Assembly: GCA_023544525.1 (NCBI GenBank)
Contig: JAMJFU010000009.1
Location: forward strand, 1 to 41,219
Source of the DNA: Anaerolineae bacterium
GTDB taxonomy: Bacteria; Chloroflexota; Anaerolineae; JAAYZQ01
Length of the DNA stretch: 41,219 nt
Direction of reading: 5' to 3'
Made by a program: the position numbers and the translations under genes. This document shows positions 4,305 to 21,003 of the stretch, piece by piece. The notes under the pieces were generated by a model. The model saw nothing but the letters and a program-made list of their open reading frames with translations, made no database searches and was not told the origin of the DNA. The first letter of the stretch is position 1, and each line of letters begins with the position of its first letter.

Positions 4305-6905
4305 CTAAACGACGCGGGGCACGCGGGCCAGGATCTCGCTGACGACCTCATAGTTGATGGTACCCAGCCGCTCGGCGACGTCCTCGGCCGTGATGCGGTC
4401 CTTGCCCTGCTCACCGATGAGGACAACTTCGTCACCCTGGCGCACGCCAGGGATATGGCTTACCTCGATCATCGTTTGATCCATGCATACCCGCCCGACG
4501 ATGGGCGCCCGCTGGCCGCGGACCAGGACATGGCCCCAGTGGTTGGGCGCCCGCCGGAAGCCATCGGCATAGCCGACAGGGATGACGGCGATCTGCTGCA
4601 CGTCCGTGGTCTGGTAGGCATTGCCATAACTGACAAAGCTACCTGGCGGCAGGGTCTTGACCTGGGCTACCTGCGTTTTGAAAGCCAGGGCTGGCCGAAA
4701 GTCAGGTGGGCAGCGGACCTGAGACGAAGGATCCAGGCCATACATGGCGATGCCCAGGCGGACCATGGTGAAATGGCTGCCCGGCAATGCCAGGATGGCG
4801 GCGGAATTAGCCGCATGGACGAGGGGGAACTCGATGCCTGCTTCTTCCAACCCAGCCAACACCTGGCGAAAGCGGCCGGCCTGCCACTGCGTATACTCGG
4901 GGCTGCTGTCGGCCACCGAAAAGTGGGTAAAGATCCCCTCCAGGATCAGGTCGGGCAGCATCTGCAATTCGTGGACAAAGGGCAGGACCTGGTCGGGCAA
5001 CAGGCCGAGCCGGCCCATGCCGGTGTCTACCTTGACGTGGACGCGGACCTTGCGGTTCAGCTCGCGAGCAGCCCGGCTGAGTGCACGGGCCACGTCCAGG
5101 TCAAAGACCGTGGCCGCGAGATCGTTGAGCACCAGTTCGCGGGCCTGCCAGGCAGGGGTAAAGCCCAAGACGAGGACCGGCGCGGCGATACCTGCTTGGC
5201 GCAGGATCGCGCCTTCGTTGATGCTGGCCACCCCCAGGTACTTGGCACCGTTGTTGAGCGCCGTACGGGCGACGCGAACGGCCCCGTGGCCATAGGCGTC
5301 TGCCTTGAGCACAGCCAGCACACGGCTCGCCGGGCCGACCATGCCGGCTATCCTCCGCACGTTGTGAGCAATGGCCTCCAGATCGACTTCGAGCCAGGTG
5401 GGCCGCCCTGGACGCAGCAGCCGTACTTTGCGCCAACCGGTGGTCTGGCGCACCAAGCGGCTCTCGGCCTGGTCCGGGTGCGCCATCAGGCCAGCTACCA
5501 CGTCTTCCATGCGGGATTCTACGCTGCCTTTGATCAGCACCGTGTCGCCCGGCGCCAGGCGGCTGCGGAGCCCGCGCAAGGTGTCGTCGCTGGTATAGGT
5601 CACCAGGATCCTGTCGGAGGCCAGTCCGGCGGCCCGTGCTTCGGCGGCAATGTGCCGGGCGCCGTCACCCTGGGCTACCAGGAGGTCGGCAACCTGTGCC
5701 GTCCGCTGGCCGATCTGGCGGGAGGCGATGGCGTCAAAGCTGCCAGGTTTGGGCGCCACTTCGCTCGGGTGTTCCAACAGGTCGCCCAGGAGCGCGATCC
5801 GCCGGCCTTTGTCAAAAAGGGCCAGGGTCTCCAGCGCCACCAGGGTCGAGGCGGCGCTGGCGTTAAAGCTGTCGTCCAGGATGCGGGTGTCGTTGACACC
5901 GGCCAGTGGGTTTAGCCTTCCGGGCAGGGGTTGCACGGCCGCCAGCACGCCCAGGGCTTCTTCGAGCGGAACGTCGAGGACCAGGCCCACGGCCACGGCC
6001 GCCAGGGCAGCATAGACGCTGTGCGCACCCAGCAGCGGCAGGCGGACGCGCAGCTTGCGCTTGCCGCGCAGGCCCGGTACCGGGAAGAACTCTTTGACAA
6101 AGACTGTGAAGGACACCCCTGATGGATTGGCGGCCACAGAGCCGGCCACGAGGTCGGCGTCCGGATCCGTGCCGTACGTTACCAGCCGGGCCCGGGTGCG
6201 CGCGGCCATGGCCCGGACACGTTCGTCATCGTAGTTCAGGATGGCCACGCCCCCCGCGCTGGCCGCTGGCAACGCCTCTACCAGGCGGCCCTTCTCGGCG
6301 GCAATGGTCTCGAGCGATCCGAGATAGGCCATGTGGGTCTCGTTCACCGAGGTCACCACGCCGATGCGGGGGCGGGTCAAGGCAGCCAGCTCGCGGATCT
6401 CGTCGACGCCGTCGCAGGCCATTTCCAGGACGGCCACCTCGTGTTTGGGCTCCAGCCGTCCCAGGGCGATAGGCAGGCCGTAGCGGTCGTTGTAGTTCCC
6501 AAAATTGCTCAGGACTGTGTGGTGGCGGGCCAGGACGGCGGCGGTGATCTCTTTCGTGGTGGTCTTGCCACTGGAACCGGTGATGCCCACGACGGTTGGA
6601 TTCAGCTTGTGGAGCACGAAACGTGCCCAGTCGACCAGGGCCTGTCGCGTGTCGTCGATGACGATGCAGGTAACGCCATAGGCTTCCAGGTCAAGGGGCC
6701 GTTGGCAGAGCACACCCGCGGCCCCACCGCGGGCTGCATCCAACACATAATCGTGGCCATCGCCCTTTTCCGTTGCGACGGCCAGGAATAGCTCTCCCGG
6801 GTTTAGCAGGCGGGTGTCGTAGCAAAAGTCGACAAAGGTGGTGGCAAAGACAGGGCCGTGGACCCTCCCCCCAGTAGCTGCCAGAAGGTCATCCAGGTAG
6901 ATCAA
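4305..6905 (-). CDS. murF-alr: Bifunctional MurF ligase / alanine racemase fusion
   Basis: 866 residues from TTG 6905. Residues 1-475 are MurF (UDP-MurNAc-tripeptide:D-Ala-D-Ala ligase): P-loop GITGSSGKTTT at 107-117, SNFGNYNDRYGLPIAL, and the C-terminal ligase domain with LDDSFNASA. Residues about 503-866 are a PLP alanine racemase: WLEVDLEAIAHNV, catalytic Lys534 in VLKADAYGHG, MGRLG, RLGIAMYGLDP, and catalytic Tyr760 in FVSYGNAY. Both active sites look intact, so one polypeptide would make D-Ala and add D-Ala-D-Ala to the peptidoglycan precursor (the Ddl step is needed between). Similar fusions are known in Bacteroidota. The start overlaps the upstream pseudokinase stop as TTGA, with GGAG 5 nt before it, indicating translational coupling; a longer frame starting at 6989 would overlap by 88 nt and lacks support. 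Confidence 0.94.
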   Translation of the reverse strand: MIYLDDLLAATGGRVHGPVFATTFVDFCYDTRLLNPGELFLAVATEKGDGHDYVLDAARGGAAGVLCQRPLDLEAYGVTCIVIDDTRQALVDWARFVLHKLNPTVVGITGSSGKTTTKEITAAVLARHHTVLSNFGNYNDRYGLPIALGRLEPKHEVAVLEMACDGVDEIRELAALTRPRIGVVTSVNETHMAYLGSLETIAAEKGRLVEALPAASAGGVAILNYDDERVRAMAARTRARLVTYGTDPDADLVAGSVAANPSGVSFTVFVKEFFPVPGLRGKRKLRVRLPLLGAHSVYAALAAVAVGLVLDVPLEEALGVLAAVQPLPGRLNPLAGVNDTRILDDSFNASAASTLVALETLALFDKGRRIALLGDLLEHPSEVAPKPGSFDAIASRQIGQRTAQVADLLVAQGDGARHIAAEARAAGLASDRILVTYTSDDTLRGLRSRLAPGDTVLIKGSVESRMEDVVAGLMAHPDQAESRLVRQTTGWRKVRLLRPGRPTWLEVDLEAIAHNVRRIAGMVGPASRVLAVLKADAYGHGAVRVARTALNNGAKYLGVASINEGAILRQAGIAAPVLVLGFTPAWQARELVLNDLAATVFDLDVARALSRAARELNRKVRVHVKVDTGMGRLGLLPDQVLPFVHELQMLPDLILEGIFTHFSVADSSPEYTQWQAGRFRQVLAGLEEAGIEFPLVHAANSAAILALPGSHFTMVRLGIAMYGLDPSSQVRCPPDFRPALAFKTQVAQVKTLPPGSFVSYGNAYQTTDVQQIAVIPVGYADGFRRAPNHWGHVLVRGQRAPIVGRVCMDQTMIEVSHIPGVRQGDEVVLIGEQGKDRITAEDVAERLGTINYEVVSEILARVPRVV

Positions 6906-8158
6906 TCGTTCTCCGTGTCCTCTTCTCCGTGTTTGGGGACCTCCCACATGGGCGGCACTTCGGGCATGGGCGGTGGGGTCTCGGCCCAATCGATGTTGGG
7001 CATTTCGGGAGGTTCGGGCATGGCGACGGGCTGCTGCTTGCCCATTTCGGGCCAGAGATCGCTCAGGTCCAGCGAGGGCATCTGCAGCGGCTCAGGGAAC
7101 TCGGCCGACACCTCGCCGGTGGCCACGGGGGTGGGTTCGGCGATGACCGTGTCCTGGACCTCGATGCCGTGGCCGACCTCGACCCGCCCCACTTCCACGC
7201 GAGTGATCTGGATCGGCTCATCCAGCACCACCTCCTCGGGCAGCGGCGGGCGGGACGGTGGGGGCGGTGGCTGCTCCAGGCGCAGCCCGCACTTGCGGCA
7301 GAAGCGCCCGCCCTGGTTCTTTGTCCCGCAGCGGGGACATTCCTGCCCGGTGGCTTGTGGCTGTGGCTTCTGTACGGAAGCGACGAGGGCCGAGCTGCCA
7401 AGTGCAGCCAGGAAGGCCTTGACGTCGGGATAGCGGTCCGCTGGCGAAGGGGAGAGGGCCTTGACGACGGCCTGGTCGATGCCCGGGGAAACGTCAGGAT
7501 TGAACCGGCTGGGCGGCAACACCCGGTCTCTTACGACCTGGGGCGGGCGCTCGGTGAGCAGCCTGTACAGGATGGCGGCCAATGAGTATACGTCGTCGCG
7601 AGCATCTACCGCCTGCCCGGACCGCCGCCCGGGGGATAGATAGGGTGATGCCCGGTCGGCGAACTCGGCCCCGACCAGGCTCATCAATTCACCCAGGCCA
7701 AGGTCGGTGACCTGCACCCGGCCGTCGTCCAATAGCACGATCTTCTCAGGCGTGAGGGTGCCGTGGGTGACCCCCTTCCGGTAGGCGTGCTCCAGGGCCT
7801 GCCCCACCTGCATCGTGAGGTCAGCGGCAGCGTCCACGGCCCATGGCTGATCCAGCTTGGCGGCCAGGGGGTGGGCCTTTTCGAGCGACTGGGTGACCAA
7901 ATAGGGCAACCCTGCCTCTTGCCCGACTTTGCGGACAGAAGCGATGTTGGGGTGGTTGAGCTGCCGGATGGCCCGGGCCAGCCTCTCGAATCGGTGGGCG
8001 ATCTGCGGATCCTCGCCCAGCAACCGGGGCAGGATCTTGATCGAAACGAGATCCCTGCTATCCGGATCCTGGCCACTGAACAGGATATAGCCCTCCTCCT
8101 GCCTTTCGAGCCTGAGTGATTTGTAACTCTCTACGATCCGTCGAACCAGGTCACGCAT
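6902..8158 (-). CDS. Zinc-ribbon pseudokinase (Ser/Thr kinase fold, catalytic residues lost)
   Basis: 418 residues from ATG 8158 (AGGGG about 8 nt upstream); an in-frame GTG at 8194 touching the cutA stop is the alternative. Residues about 20-260 follow the PknB-type kinase fold: Lys41 in LVSIKIL, RLARAIRQLNHPNIASV, DDVYSLAAILYRLLTERPP, PADRYPDVKAFLAAL. The catalytic loop HRDLKPxN is replaced by HGTLTPEK (132-139), so the base Asp, Lys and Asn are gone; DFG is DLG (152-154), and the glycine loop and helix-C Glu are absent. A zinc ribbon (Cys 274, 277, 287, 290) follows, then a Pro/Glu-rich acidic tail of about 120 residues. No membrane segment. It probably binds ligands or partners without phosphotransfer. 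Coupling to murF-alr suggests a scaffold or regulator of wall synthesis. Confidence 0.88.
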   Translation of the reverse strand: MRDLVRRIVESYKSLRLERQEEGYILFSGQDPDSRDLVSIKILPRLLGEDPQIAHRFERLARAIRQLNHPNIASVRKVGQEAGLPYLVTQSLEKAHPLAAKLDQPWAVDAAADLTMQVGQALEHAYRKGVTHGTLTPEKIVLLDDGRVQVTDLGLGELMSLVGAEFADRASPYLSPGRRSGQAVDARDDVYSLAAILYRLLTERPPQVVRDRVLPPSRFNPDVSPGIDQAVVKALSPSPADRYPDVKAFLAALGSSALVASVQKPQPQATGQECPRCGTKNQGGRFCRKCGLRLEQPPPPPSRPPLPEEVVLDEPIQITRVEVGRVEVGHGIEVQDTVIAEPTPVATGEVSAEFPEPLQMPSLDLSDLWPEMGKQQPVAMPEPPEMPNIDWAETPPPMPEVPPMWEVPKHGEEDTEND

Positions 8159-8193: not shown

Positions 8194-8532
8194 CTAGTCA
8201 ACCCCGTGCCAATCGCCCTGGGTTTCGCGGTCAATCCAGAGCAGATACGGTTCGCTCCCGCCAACGATTGGCAGGGCGATGACCTCCGGCACGTCGTAGC
8301 TGTGCAGGCCACGGACGTGCTGGATCAGTTCCTCCAGGACATCACGGCGGGTCTTGGCCAGCAATAGCCATTCCTGGTCACGCTGGATCTCGTCCTCCCA
8401 GCGATACACCGAGGTCATGCTGGGAATGATGTTCACACAGGCTGCCAGCATCGCCTTGACGAGGGAACCTGCGATCCGCTCTGCCTCTTCCTGGGACCCA
8501 GCGGTCATCAGCACCACCAGTCGCTCAGACAT
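8194..8532 (-). CDS. cutA: CutA divalent-cation tolerance family protein
   Basis: 112 residues, full length for CutA. Contains the family signatures LVVLMTAGSQEEAERIAGSLV at the N-terminus, LAACVNIIPSMTSVYRWEDEI, and the C-terminal SYDVPEVIALPIVGGSEPYL. CutA forms a trimer with a PII-like ferredoxin fold; linked genetically to copper tolerance, but its molecular role is unsettled and a signalling role has been suggested. ATG 8532 has GAGGAGGT 4-5 nt upstream. It is the first gene of the leftward operon cutA - pseudokinase - murF-alr. Confidence 0.97.
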   Translation of the reverse strand: MSERLVVLMTAGSQEEAERIAGSLVKAMLAACVNIIPSMTSVYRWEDEIQRDQEWLLLAKTRRDVLEELIQHVRGLHSYDVPEVIALPIVGGSEPYLLWIDRETQGDWHGVD

Positions 8533-16954: not shown

Positions 16955-18697
16955 TCAGCCGTAGAGAGGTCCACGGCCCGGCTGGCTGCCGTTCCGATAG
17001 ACAACCAGCCGCGCGTATCGTCGCGCTTCTGCAAGGCCCGCTAGCGGGACTAGCGGCCCTCCCAGCCACAGCCAGCAGGTCTCCCCGCCCGAATCCGGCT
17101 CGCGAGCCGGCATCGCTTCCAGGTGCCGCATCTGTTCCATCTCTGACGGGCCAGCCCGGAAAAAGCGCCTGGTCCATTCACGGGCGGTCCGGTGGTGGTC
17201 AAAGAGGGCGATGGCACAGGACGTTGGATCGCACTCGAACAGTTGATATACCTGCAGGAAATCGCAGATCGACTCATAGATCTGGGCTTTGGACGTGACT
17301 GACGGCACGAACAAGACCTTGTTGTCCAGGGAGAGGGTCGTTGCCAAGCGGGTTCCTGACAACTTGCGGGTGATGAAGCCACTACAGAGGTACTGGAACG
17401 TGTTCTCCAGGAGGATCAGGTACGTGGCTCCCAAGGTGAGCCAATTGTCCAGCGTCGACGTATCCAGGCTGGACACGAGGGTAGCCCTGGGGTGCCACAC
17501 GGCTGTCTGCAACAGGATCAGCGAGGCCACGACCACGCCCTCAAAGAAGGCCAGCTTCAAGAGCGGCTCTTGCGCCCAATCGGTCAGATCTGCTCCTGCA
17601 ACGCTGGCCCAGAACCCATTGCCCAGTGCGTCCTGCAGGTCGTCTACGGCCAACAAGACCTCCGGCTGCTGAGCTTCCTCGGTGAAGGCAAAATCAACCA
17701 TGACGTCCCGGGGCATGATTACAAACACGGACATGATGATCATCAGCGTGACCAGGACAAAGGTCGATCCACTCAGCAGAAAGCCCGTCCACCGGGAGCG
17801 CCCGGTCAAGGCGATCTCCAGCAGTGATCCGGCTCTGGACACGAGATTGTCCAGGTTCTTCCACTCAAGCCGGGCCTCGATCGCGTCCACCCAGGCGGCG
17901 TCCACGAGAGCCGCGCCGGCCTTTGCCTGTGCTGAACGGAGTGCTGTGTCCAGGCTATAGAGCCGGACACGGTCCCAGTTCTGGACGCTATGGCCCACCG
18001 CGCGGCGGACCCCGGCCTTGGATACCCAGATGAACGATAGTCCCGCGACCAGGTACAACCCTCCACCAAAGACCAGGAGCCGGTCCCACCCAATCTGGCC
18101 CACCGATCGCCACAGGCTGCTAACGCTCAGGTTGGCAAATAGACCGGCAATAATAGCCATCGAGGCTAGACTGGCCCAGACCTGGAAGGCCGGGGCCATC
18201 TGTCTCAAGCGGGTTCTCCACCACCTACGAAATTGGCGCCAGGAGCCATAGTGCTCGGGATGTTCGAGGGAATCCTGGACGGTGCGGTAGATACACCACT
18301 GGAACGCACCTCTAAAGAGCGCCCCAGGCAGGGATTCTCCCCCCAAGAACAGGGCGACCCCGGCAGCGCTGATGCCCAGGGCCCAATAGAACGGTGGGCG
18401 GATGCGCTCCCAGAGGAAAGGCCACAAGAGCACCGGCTCCAGCGCTCCACCCCGCCTCCGGTAGCGTTCAGCCGTCTCCACCGCCAGGGCAACGAGCAGG
18501 CTCAGGAGGATGCCGGGGAAAGGCAGGCCCAAGAATCCCAGGGCCGACAGGAAGATCAGGGCGATCCGCAAGAACAACAGGTCATGGTGCCGTTGGGAGA
18601 GGGGGACCAGTCCGGCAAGACCGCCGTCGATGAGGGTCTCGCGCAGTAGGTGTTCCAGGACCTGTTTCTGCCCCGTCGCTGGCCGGTTCTGGTTCAT
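16955..18697 (-). CDS. Unknown multi-pass membrane protein coupled to NifS-SelD
   Basis: 580 residues; I do not recognise a family. Hydrophobic segments suggest about seven membrane helices: two near 41-78 (LLFLRIALIFLSALGFLG), 104-122, about 171-190 (ASLASMAIIAGLFANL), about 208-226, about 311-334 (FVLVTLMIIMSVFVIM) and about 385-402 (GVVVASLILLQTAVW). Between these are large soluble stretches, and the C-terminal about 160 residues look cytoplasmic. ATG 18697 overlaps the nifS-selD stop as ATGA, so it is translated right after it. The coupling suggests a partner in selenium or sulfur handling, for example transport, but nothing in the sequence proves it. No conserved Cys clusters or transporter motif seen. 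Confidence 0.8.
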   Translation of the reverse strand: MNQNRPATGQKQVLEHLLRETLIDGGLAGLVPLSQRHHDLLFLRIALIFLSALGFLGLPFPGILLSLLVALAVETAERYRRRGGALEPVLLWPFLWERIRPPFYWALGISAAGVALFLGGESLPGALFRGAFQWCIYRTVQDSLEHPEHYGSWRQFRRWWRTRLRQMAPAFQVWASLASMAIIAGLFANLSVSSLWRSVGQIGWDRLLVFGGGLYLVAGLSFIWVSKAGVRRAVGHSVQNWDRVRLYSLDTALRSAQAKAGAALVDAAWVDAIEARLEWKNLDNLVSRAGSLLEIALTGRSRWTGFLLSGSTFVLVTLMIIMSVFVIMPRDVMVDFAFTEEAQQPEVLLAVDDLQDALGNGFWASVAGADLTDWAQEPLLKLAFFEGVVVASLILLQTAVWHPRATLVSSLDTSTLDNWLTLGATYLILLENTFQYLCSGFITRKLSGTRLATTLSLDNKVLFVPSVTSKAQIYESICDFLQVYQLFECDPTSCAIALFDHHRTAREWTRRFFRAGPSEMEQMRHLEAMPAREPDSGGETCWLWLGGPLVPLAGLAEARRYARLVVYRNGSQPGRGPLYG

Positions 18698-20913
18698 GCT
18701 TTCACTAGGATACGGCCTGTTCCTTGACTGTTGACCTGGCCAATCACCGCTGCGGCCACCACGCCCCGCGACCGGAGCTCCGCCACCAATCGATCGGCGT
18801 CTTGGGCAGGCAGGCTGATCAGTAGCCCACCTGAGGTCTGGGCATCGCCCAGGATCAGCCGGTCGACTGCCGAAACCTCCGGCTCGAAGCGTACGTGTGG
18901 CTCCACGTAGGCCAGGTTATTGAGGGTCCCGCCGGGCACCACATCGGCTCCGGCAAAGGTTCGGGCAGCGGGCAGGAAGGGTACGGCGCTGGCCCGGATG
19001 GTCACGTCTACCTTGCTGCCGGCGACCATCTCGCGCAAGTGCCCCAGCAGCCCAAAACCGGTGATGTCTGTGCAGGCGTTCGCCCCAATTGCCAGCATCA
19101 CCTCGGCAGCGTCACGATTGAGCGCGGCCATTACCTCGGCGACCTCCCGGGCGGTGGCCTCGTCTGCGAGGCCGCGTTTGACGGCCGTAGAGACAATGCC
19201 TGTGCCCAGCGGTTTAGTCAGCACCAGGGCATCTCCCGGGCGGGCGGTGCTGTTGCGCACGATGCGATCTGGGTGGACCGTCCCGGTGACGGCCAGGCCG
19301 AACTTGGGCTCTGGGTCATCCACCGTGTGTCCGCCCACGATCGGGATGCCGGCCTCCTGCGCCTTGTCCAGGGCTCCGCGCAGGATCTCTTCCAGCACAC
19401 GCATCGGCAGGCGGTTGGAGGGAAAGCCAACGATGTTCAGAGCAAACAGGGGCTGGGCGCCCATGGCGTACACGTCACTGAGGGAGTTGGCTGCCGAAAT
19501 GGCGCCAAACCAATAGGGATCGTCGACGATGGGGGTAAAGAAATCGACGGTCTGGACCAGGGCCACCTCGTCACCAAGCCGGTAGACGGCTGCATCATCG
19601 GCGGTATCGATGCCGACCAGCAACGCTGGATCGGCTGGCCGTGGGAGGCGAGCCAATACTGCTTCCAGGGCCTGGGGCCGGAGTTTGCAGGCACAGCCGA
19701 GGCCATGGGTGTAGCGCGTCAGCCTCACGTCCTGCTCGTCCCGCAGCAGCACAGGTTCGGCCAACGCTGCCCGGGGCTGGAGGCGCCGCACCGCCCCGGC
19801 AACGATCTCGACAGCCCGGTCTACCGCCTCCGCGGAGGTGTCGCGCCCCACCGAGAAGCGGATGGTGCCCATCGCCCACTCGACCGGCACGGCCATCGCT
19901 TCCAGCACCGCCGAGACGTCCACCTCGTCCGCGTGGCAGGCGGCTCCGGCAGAAGCTGCCACCTGGTCGCCAATCTCGGACAGGAGGGTATTGGCTTCAA
20001 CACCTCGGAAGCTGAGGCTGAGGGTGTTTGGCAAGCGTTTCTCGGGGTGGCCGTTGAGCTTCAGCGCTTCGGCGCCAAGTTCGCGGAGCAATCCCTGGTG
20101 CAGCCGGTCGCGCATGGCCTGGAAGTGGGCCATATTCTCTGCCAGGTCGCGCCGGGCGATCTCGCAGGCCTTGCCCAACCCCACGACCTCCAGTACGTTC
20201 TCTGTGCCGGGCCGCCGACCGCCCTCGTGCCCGGCGCCATGGATCAAGGGTTCCAGAGCCACACCGGTGCGGATGTAGAGGGCGCCAATGCCCTTTGGCG
20301 CATAGACCTTGTGTCCGGCTACAGATAGCAGATCGACGCCGAGGTCATCGACGTGGACCGGGATCTTGCCCACCGACTGGGCGGCATCGGTATGCATCAG
20401 GGCGCCGTGTTGATGGGCGATCTCGGCCAGCTCGCGGACCGGCTGGATGGTGCCCACCTCGTTGTTGGCGTGCATCACCGTCACCAGCAGCGTGCCGGGG
20501 CCAATGGCGCGTTGCAGGTCGGCGGGGTCCACGAGGCCATCACCGTCGACCGGCAGGACCGTGACGCGGAAACCCTGCCCTTCTAACCAGTGGCAGACCT
20601 CGATGACGGCCGGATGTTCGATGGCGGTGGTAATGATATGGTTTCCACGGCTGCGGTGAGCCAGGGCAATGCCCTTGATGGCATAGTTGTTGCTCTCTGT
20701 GCCGCCGCTGGTAAAGACGACCTCGTTTGGTTGGCACTTGAGCAAGGCCGCTAACTGGGATCGAGCGCCTTCCACGGCGCGCTTGGTCGCCACGCCAAAT
20801 GGATGGCTGCTGGAGGGATTGCCAAAGTGCTCATAGAGGTAGGGTGCCATCGTCTCAGCAACTTCGGGGGCGATGGGCGTTGTGGCGTTATAGTCCAGAT
20901 AAATCGGATCCAC
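18694..20913 (-). CDS. selD: Cysteine desulfurase-selenide water dikinase fusion (NifS-SelD)
   Basis: 739 residues from GTG 20913. Residues 1-385 are a class V cysteine desulfurase: YLDYNATTP, HANNEVGT, PLP Lys202 in SVAGHKVYAPKG, catalytic Cys326 in AGAACHADEVDVS. Residues about 390-739 are SelD: GLGCACK with Cys407, Cys409 and Lys410 (the catalytic Cys position is Cys, not selenocysteine), VQTVDFFTPIVDDPYWFG, DITGFGLLGH. The fusion would free selenide from selenocysteine and pass it directly to selenophosphate synthesis, feeding Sec or selenouridine formation. Such fusions are annotated in several bacteria. An upstream GTG at 21000 lies at the predicted transcription start and is rejected. 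First gene of an operon with the 580-aa membrane protein. Confidence 0.96.
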   Translation of the reverse strand: MDPIYLDYNATTPIAPEVAETMAPYLYEHFGNPSSSHPFGVATKRAVEGARSQLAALLKCQPNEVVFTSGGTESNNYAIKGIALAHRSRGNHIITTAIEHPAVIEVCHWLEGQGFRVTVLPVDGDGLVDPADLQRAIGPGTLLVTVMHANNEVGTIQPVRELAEIAHQHGALMHTDAAQSVGKIPVHVDDLGVDLLSVAGHKVYAPKGIGALYIRTGVALEPLIHGAGHEGGRRPGTENVLEVVGLGKACEIARRDLAENMAHFQAMRDRLHQGLLRELGAEALKLNGHPEKRLPNTLSLSFRGVEANTLLSEIGDQVAASAGAACHADEVDVSAVLEAMAVPVEWAMGTIRFSVGRDTSAEAVDRAVEIVAGAVRRLQPRAALAEPVLLRDEQDVRLTRYTHGLGCACKLRPQALEAVLARLPRPADPALLVGIDTADDAAVYRLGDEVALVQTVDFFTPIVDDPYWFGAISAANSLSDVYAMGAQPLFALNIVGFPSNRLPMRVLEEILRGALDKAQEAGIPIVGGHTVDDPEPKFGLAVTGTVHPDRIVRNSTARPGDALVLTKPLGTGIVSTAVKRGLADEATAREVAEVMAALNRDAAEVMLAIGANACTDITGFGLLGHLREMVAGSKVDVTIRASAVPFLPAARTFAGADVVPGGTLNNLAYVEPHVRFEPEVSAVDRLILGDAQTSGGLLISLPAQDADRLVAELRSRGVVAAAVIGQVNSQGTGRILVKA

Positions 20914-21003
20914 GTCAGTCTTCCGGGAGGGTCCCCTGTTCGATCGCGCCCTGGGACCGAAAACCGTCCATTCTCTAGTAGTGGCTCCGTGCTGACCCAC
21001 CGT

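Follow-up and report, generated by a model that had tools for sequence, protein, structure and literature searches.

Introduction

To our knowledge, hardly any bacterial pseudokinases have been characterised, and a plausible partner can be named for few of them. Seven bacterial families have been published, namely ActPs1-3, GLW, CP1, DYD, and DLHK, and Chloroflexi receive no mention in a review (PMC12599244). The MviN pseudokinase of Mycobacterium tuberculosis MurJ, which belongs to ActPs3, serves as a scaffold, with its phosphorylated tail recruiting FhaA (PMC12599244).

The window analysed here, the whole stretch of 41,219 nucleotides from an Anaerolineae bacterium (contig JAMJFU010000009.1), encodes a kinase-fold protein whose gene is coupled to a fusion of murF and alr (Table 1). 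The analysis suggests that this protein, found in a few Chloroflexota lineages, is a previously unrecognised regulator that would act without catalysis on the supply of D-alanine to the cell wall. Elsewhere in the window, a 768-aa fusion of a cysteine desulfurase (NifS type) with SelD (18694-21000, minus strand) overlaps a 580-aa ORF (16955-18697) that has no match in Pfam or NCBIfam.

Table 1. Coordinates of the pseudokinase locus in the window
Feature	Position	Strand	Description
Pseudokinase gene	6902..8158	-	418 aa; kinase fold over about aa 1-264, followed by the zinc ribbon, a linker of low complexity, and the conserved tail; start ATG at 8158, stop TGA 6904-6902
Kinase-like domain	7367..8158	-	aa 1-264; based on PknB alignment, AF2, and dN/dS
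Cys4 zinc ribbon	7277..7345	-	aa 272-294; limited to lineage f1
Conserved tail	6974..7105	-	About aa 352-395; FPEPLQMPSLD...MPNIDW; sole non-kinase part common to 7/7 homologues
TTGA junction	6902..6905	-	Overlap of murF-alr TTG start (6905-6903) and pseudokinase TGA stop
murF-alr fusion	4305..6905	-	866 aa: MurF aa 1 to about 480, Alr aa 500-865
cutA	8194..8532	-	35 nt upstream of the pseudokinase

Results and discussion

Kinase fold and catalytic motifs

The window protein matches the Pfam profile Pkinase (PF00069) with a score of 53.3 bits, above the cut-off of 31.7, and all seven members of its family belong to the protein kinase superfamily by a Pkinase match at E<=0.01. Its AF2 model shows a kinase fold with pLDDT mostly >90, so the structure prediction proposed earlier for the pseudokinase alone gives a confident result, and the best Foldseek matches are PknB, PknA, and PknS, with E values of about 1e-17 for PknB and PknA. 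In alignment with M. tuberculosis PknB, HRDVKPAN is replaced by HGTLTPEK and the helix-C stretch RFRREAQ by RFERLAR, losing the Glu; the glycine loop is missing, while the beta-3 Lys (SIKIL, K41) and the DLG motif (D152) are retained. This agrees with the initial annotation, which had listed the loss of HRD (to HGT), the glycine loop, the helix-C Glu, and the catalytic Lys and Asn, with the VAIK-type Lys and DLG kept. The HRD Asp, catalytic Lys and Asn, glycine loop, and helix-C Glu expected of an active Hanks-type Ser/Thr kinase are all lacking.

The same losses run through the family, with HRD replaced by HGT, HGS, HGN, or HGA in 7/7 members and a glycine loop in 0/7. The beta-3 Lys and DFG Asp are retained in two members, the window genome (G000) and G001, and both are gone in the other five, where erosion is therefore further advanced than in the window. 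This is a true pseudokinase family. The zinc ribbon reported for the window protein holds in part: its four Cys are present, and the relative with 60% identity retains all of them, but the ribbon does not extend to the family as a whole, and the match of its motif (CPRCG...FCRKCG) to Zn_ribbon_3, at E=7e-4, falls under the curated cut-off.

Other HRD-deviating kinases were seen in the sample. The window's own genome encodes a second HRD-less (HGS) kinase-like protein beside an FtsH-like ORF (L215:6256-7710, minus strand), and in G005 PP2C-like, HGD-type kinase, and FHA-like ORFs, as read from the sequences, stand in a row (L214:3189-6412, minus strand).

Family extent and coupling to murF-alr

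Profile searches covered 396 genomes of the class and 400 of the phylum, partly the same genomes. The class-wide search yielded members in seven genomes with E values from 1e-190 to 1e-115, separated by a sharp gap from the next kinases at 1e-55 and weaker, and the phylum sample of 400 gave no further members. They fall into three family-level lineages: f1 (G000, G001), f26 (G026), and f20 (G020, G055, G107, G127). On a tree of 90 kinases the seven cluster with support of 97/88, with one long-branch Thermosporothrix row inside, and the family likely has a single origin. That Thermosporothrix kinase (L116), which joins the cluster on a very long branch, was left out of the member count because its neighbours are unrelated. 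A search of genome contigs returned mostly ordinary kinases, along with the members' contigs JAGVRI010000013.1 and JANWYQ010000188.1 (the latter from Caldilineales). None of the kinases examined outside the family adjoins MurF-Alr; one distant MurF-like match lies elsewhere on L152.

Across the three lineages, all seven members lie directly upstream of murF(-alr). Stop and start overlap by 4 nt (TTGA or GTGA) in five genomes (G000, G001, G055, G107, G127), and the genes are separated by +2 nt in G020 and +9 nt in G026. In the window, the TTGA overlap and its preceding GGAG were confirmed at the junction listed in Table 1, with the GGAG 5 bases upstream of the TTG. In G107 and G127 the contig stops within the MurF part, leaving the Alr part out of view at the pseudokinase locus; the sole Alr match of each lies on another contig, which fits a split assembly without proving a fusion. 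Given that the two genes are paired in seven genomes, the arrangement is not due to chance. Homologues with an intact HRD motif and relatives without the adjacency had been named beforehand as outcomes contrary to the proposal, and neither appeared within the family: intact HRD was found in 0/7 members and adjacency to murF-alr in 7/7.

The fusion also occurs widely on its own, with the pseudokinase beside 5 of 24 full-length MurF-Alr fusions and missing beside 19. Elsewhere the upstream neighbour is an EamA-like gene (G002), URO-D (G043), an M50 peptidase (G041), or cutA (G028), which there directly precedes murF-alr with no pseudokinase between. A gene of the D-Ala-D-Ala-ligase (Ddl) family occupies the pseudokinase's place just upstream of murF-alr in G037 (L071:7562-8704, minus strand). 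G083 lacks the pseudokinase at murF-alr, though it belongs to the same family as four members; its locus has divergent transporter genes upstream, of the same kind as in G107, and no pseudokinase remnant was seen there (best tblastn E 0.14). On the MurF-Alr tree, pseudokinase presence takes four changes, at least three of them forced by well-supported branches, and this patchiness would reflect either an old coupling with losses or transfer. As most relatives' fusions lack it, the pseudokinase would be an accessory regulator, dispensable for the enzyme. A post hoc and weak scan for MurF-Alr columns tracking pseudokinase presence gave four columns, compared with 0-2 under swapped labels. Glu at MurF position 189, seen in 7/7 carriers of the pseudokinase and 1/13 non-carriers, is an equally post hoc and weak signal, making this residue a weak candidate for a contact site.

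Selection and the conserved tail

In three close pairs of genus g52, the kinase-like domain has dN/dS values (NG86) of 0.24, 0.21, and 0.18, compared with 0.27, 0.24, and 0.26 for MurF in the same pairs. With values at or below those of MurF, the domain is maintained and shows no decay. In g52, constraint is weaker on the linker and tail, which change more quickly than the kinase domain.

Towards the C-terminus, the motif FPxPxxMPxΦD...MPx(I/V)DW is kept at an overall between-lineage identity of about 29%. Cross-lineage tail profiles give 19-26 bits to most tails of other lineages, whereas shuffled tails do not exceed 11.9. Two cases are weak: the profile from the other lineage scores G001 at 9.2 vs 8.9, and the two-sequence f1 profile misses G026, which scores 22.6 with a six-sequence profile that excludes it. 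The motif was not found in any other protein of the seven member genomes. In AF2 models of two distant members, confidence over the tail motifs is about 71-80 at best, above the flanking disordered linker, a rise that could reflect alignment conservation alone.

The downstream MurF-Alr fusion

The fused MurF scores 303-306 bits with TIGR01143, above the curated cut-off of 288.6, and the fused alanine racemase 384.9 bits with TIGR00492 (curated cut-off 168). The bifunctional MurF/Alr model NF008897 gives 450.9 bits, short of its equivalog cut-off of 804. Another MurF match occurs elsewhere in 10/10 genomes checked, outscoring the fused MurF where it is complete; the copies in G026, G107, and G002 are split or partial. 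In G000, G001, and G055 this canonical MurF lies inside a dcw-type cluster, as read from its neighbours and not from profiles. A comparison of 10 fusions shows that the fused MurF retains the ATP P-loop along with many further positions. Its activity is uncertain, because 26 of 177 positions invariant in canonical MurF are altered in 10/10 fusions, including residues of the NNEIG and EMGMY motifs. With substrate-side motifs altered in the fusions compared, the MurF half (of the fusion gene at 4305-6905 and of L024-L048) represents a diverged second MurF that is widespread in the class, here called MurF2. The term 'MurF-Alr' itself was not found in use in the literature searched.

The fused Alr is the only match above the alanine racemase cut-off per genome, in genomes that are 83-98% complete, so that a missed copy is possible. 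Because the fused Alr is the only racemase found and a canonical MurF lies elsewhere, D-alanine is likelier to be the regulated quantity than the MurF step. The view of MurF-Alr as a target for controlling precursor supply accordingly narrows: the fusion is intact, but its MurF has diverged and coexists with a canonical paralogue, and Alr alone is unique.

Proposed role and alternatives

The pseudokinase is, on balance, probably a partner of the co-translated MurF2-Alr, binding and tuning it without catalysis. Translational coupling would produce the two proteins together; the kinase-like domain, having lost phosphate transfer, would now act as a binding module, and the mostly disordered C-terminal tail (FPxPxxMPxΦD, MPxIDW) would provide a docking peptide, with the co-translated MurF2-Alr as its likeliest partner. 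The pair would then determine how much D-alanine is supplied to peptidoglycan, or where, since the fused racemase would be the cell's sole route to D-alanine by racemisation. Within this model we infer the binding, the direction of regulation, and any signal sensed. A more specific form, tentative and with somewhat less than even chances, is that this candidate new pseudokinase family is a dedicated, stoichiometric, allosteric subunit of MurF2-Alr whose docking tail makes the sole Alr a regulated step.

Coupling in 7/7 genomes, purifying selection on the kinase-like domain, the cross-lineage tail, the Ddl-family ligase gene in the pseudokinase's place in G037, and the fused Alr as the only alanine racemase found all favour MurF2-Alr as the partner. 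Against it stand the many MurF2-Alr genes without a pseudokinase, including that of G083, the at least three changes on the MurF-Alr tree, and a linker and tail that evolve faster than the kinase domain. The idea that a pseudokinase controls precursor supply is thus upheld as far as conserved coupling goes and weakened by its absence from most MurF-Alr relatives, with regulation itself still putative. The pseudokinase could instead be a scaffold for another partner, for example a component of the divisome or elongasome, the canonical MurF/MraY complex, or an active kinase of the PknB type, its coupling to murF-alr amounting to co-expression for wall growth only. A Pro-rich tail of short motifs is typical of hub-binding peptides, true kinases and a dcw-type cluster are present in the genomes, and the pseudokinase is patchy relative to MurF-Alr. 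This reading is nonetheless rather unlikely, as unbroken adjacency in 7/7, with overlaps of 4 nt, favours dosage matched to the downstream protein.

A switch like that of MviN and FhaA, in which an active Ser/Thr kinase phosphorylates the tail, an FHA protein is recruited, and precursor synthesis is restrained, would draw on the closest functional precedent in cell-wall control (PMC12599244), and kinases are present. The seven proteins contain no invariant Ser or Thr, no MurJ fusion (their best MurJ matches are separate ORFs), and no membrane segment (hydropathy over 19 residues peaks at 1.26 for the window protein and at 1.63 across the members), which makes such a switch improbable and leaves the MviN/FhaA precedent cited in the initial annotation without specific support. 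Residual or altered catalysis, or ATP sensing, through nucleotide binding or another transfer by the window protein is less probable still: K41 and D152 are retained in G000 and G001, but the beta-3 Lys and DFG Asp are gone in 5/7 members, and the glycine loop and HRD are found in 0/7. Least credible is a neutral kinase relic hitchhiking in the operon. The eroded active site and the absence from most relatives, including G083, would suit a relic; intact ORFs in 7/7, a conserved tail, persistent coupling, and purifying selection (dN/dS about 0.2) already disfavour it.

Alanine racemase is an antibiotic target commonly regarded as a housekeeping enzyme, and it would gain a protein regulator if the pseudokinase controls Alr. 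In this system the genetics point to one enzyme, the conserved tail is a peptide open to experiment, and relatives that carry or lack the pseudokinase exist in nature. The second MurF, widespread and joined to the sole Alr, also deserves notice.

Comparison with known systems

The bifunctional MurF/Alr protein (NF008897, PRK11930) shares the MurF-Alr domain order, whereas the Chloroflexota form is distinct and accompanied by a canonical MurF. The Hanks-type kinases PknB, PknA, and StkP are the nearest solved structures by sequence and fold; they are active, while the window family lacks HRD, the glycine loop, and the helix-C Glu. Like MviN, the window protein combines a catalytically dead Ser/Thr-kinase fold with a tie to peptidoglycan precursor metabolism, and the C-terminal tail of MviN binds (PMC12599244). 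MviN is a domain of a membrane flippase in Actinobacteria, whereas the window protein is a separate, soluble Chloroflexota protein coupled to MurF2-Alr. The beta-3 and HRD motifs read VALT and Lsidhpsr in ActPs3 (PMC12599244) and SIKIL and HGTLTPEK in the window protein, and the tail of the window family differs from that of MviN and carries no invariant phospho-acceptor. From this comparison, the window family is probably not of the MviN type, and may resemble MviN only loosely, as a dead-kinase scaffold in wall synthesis.
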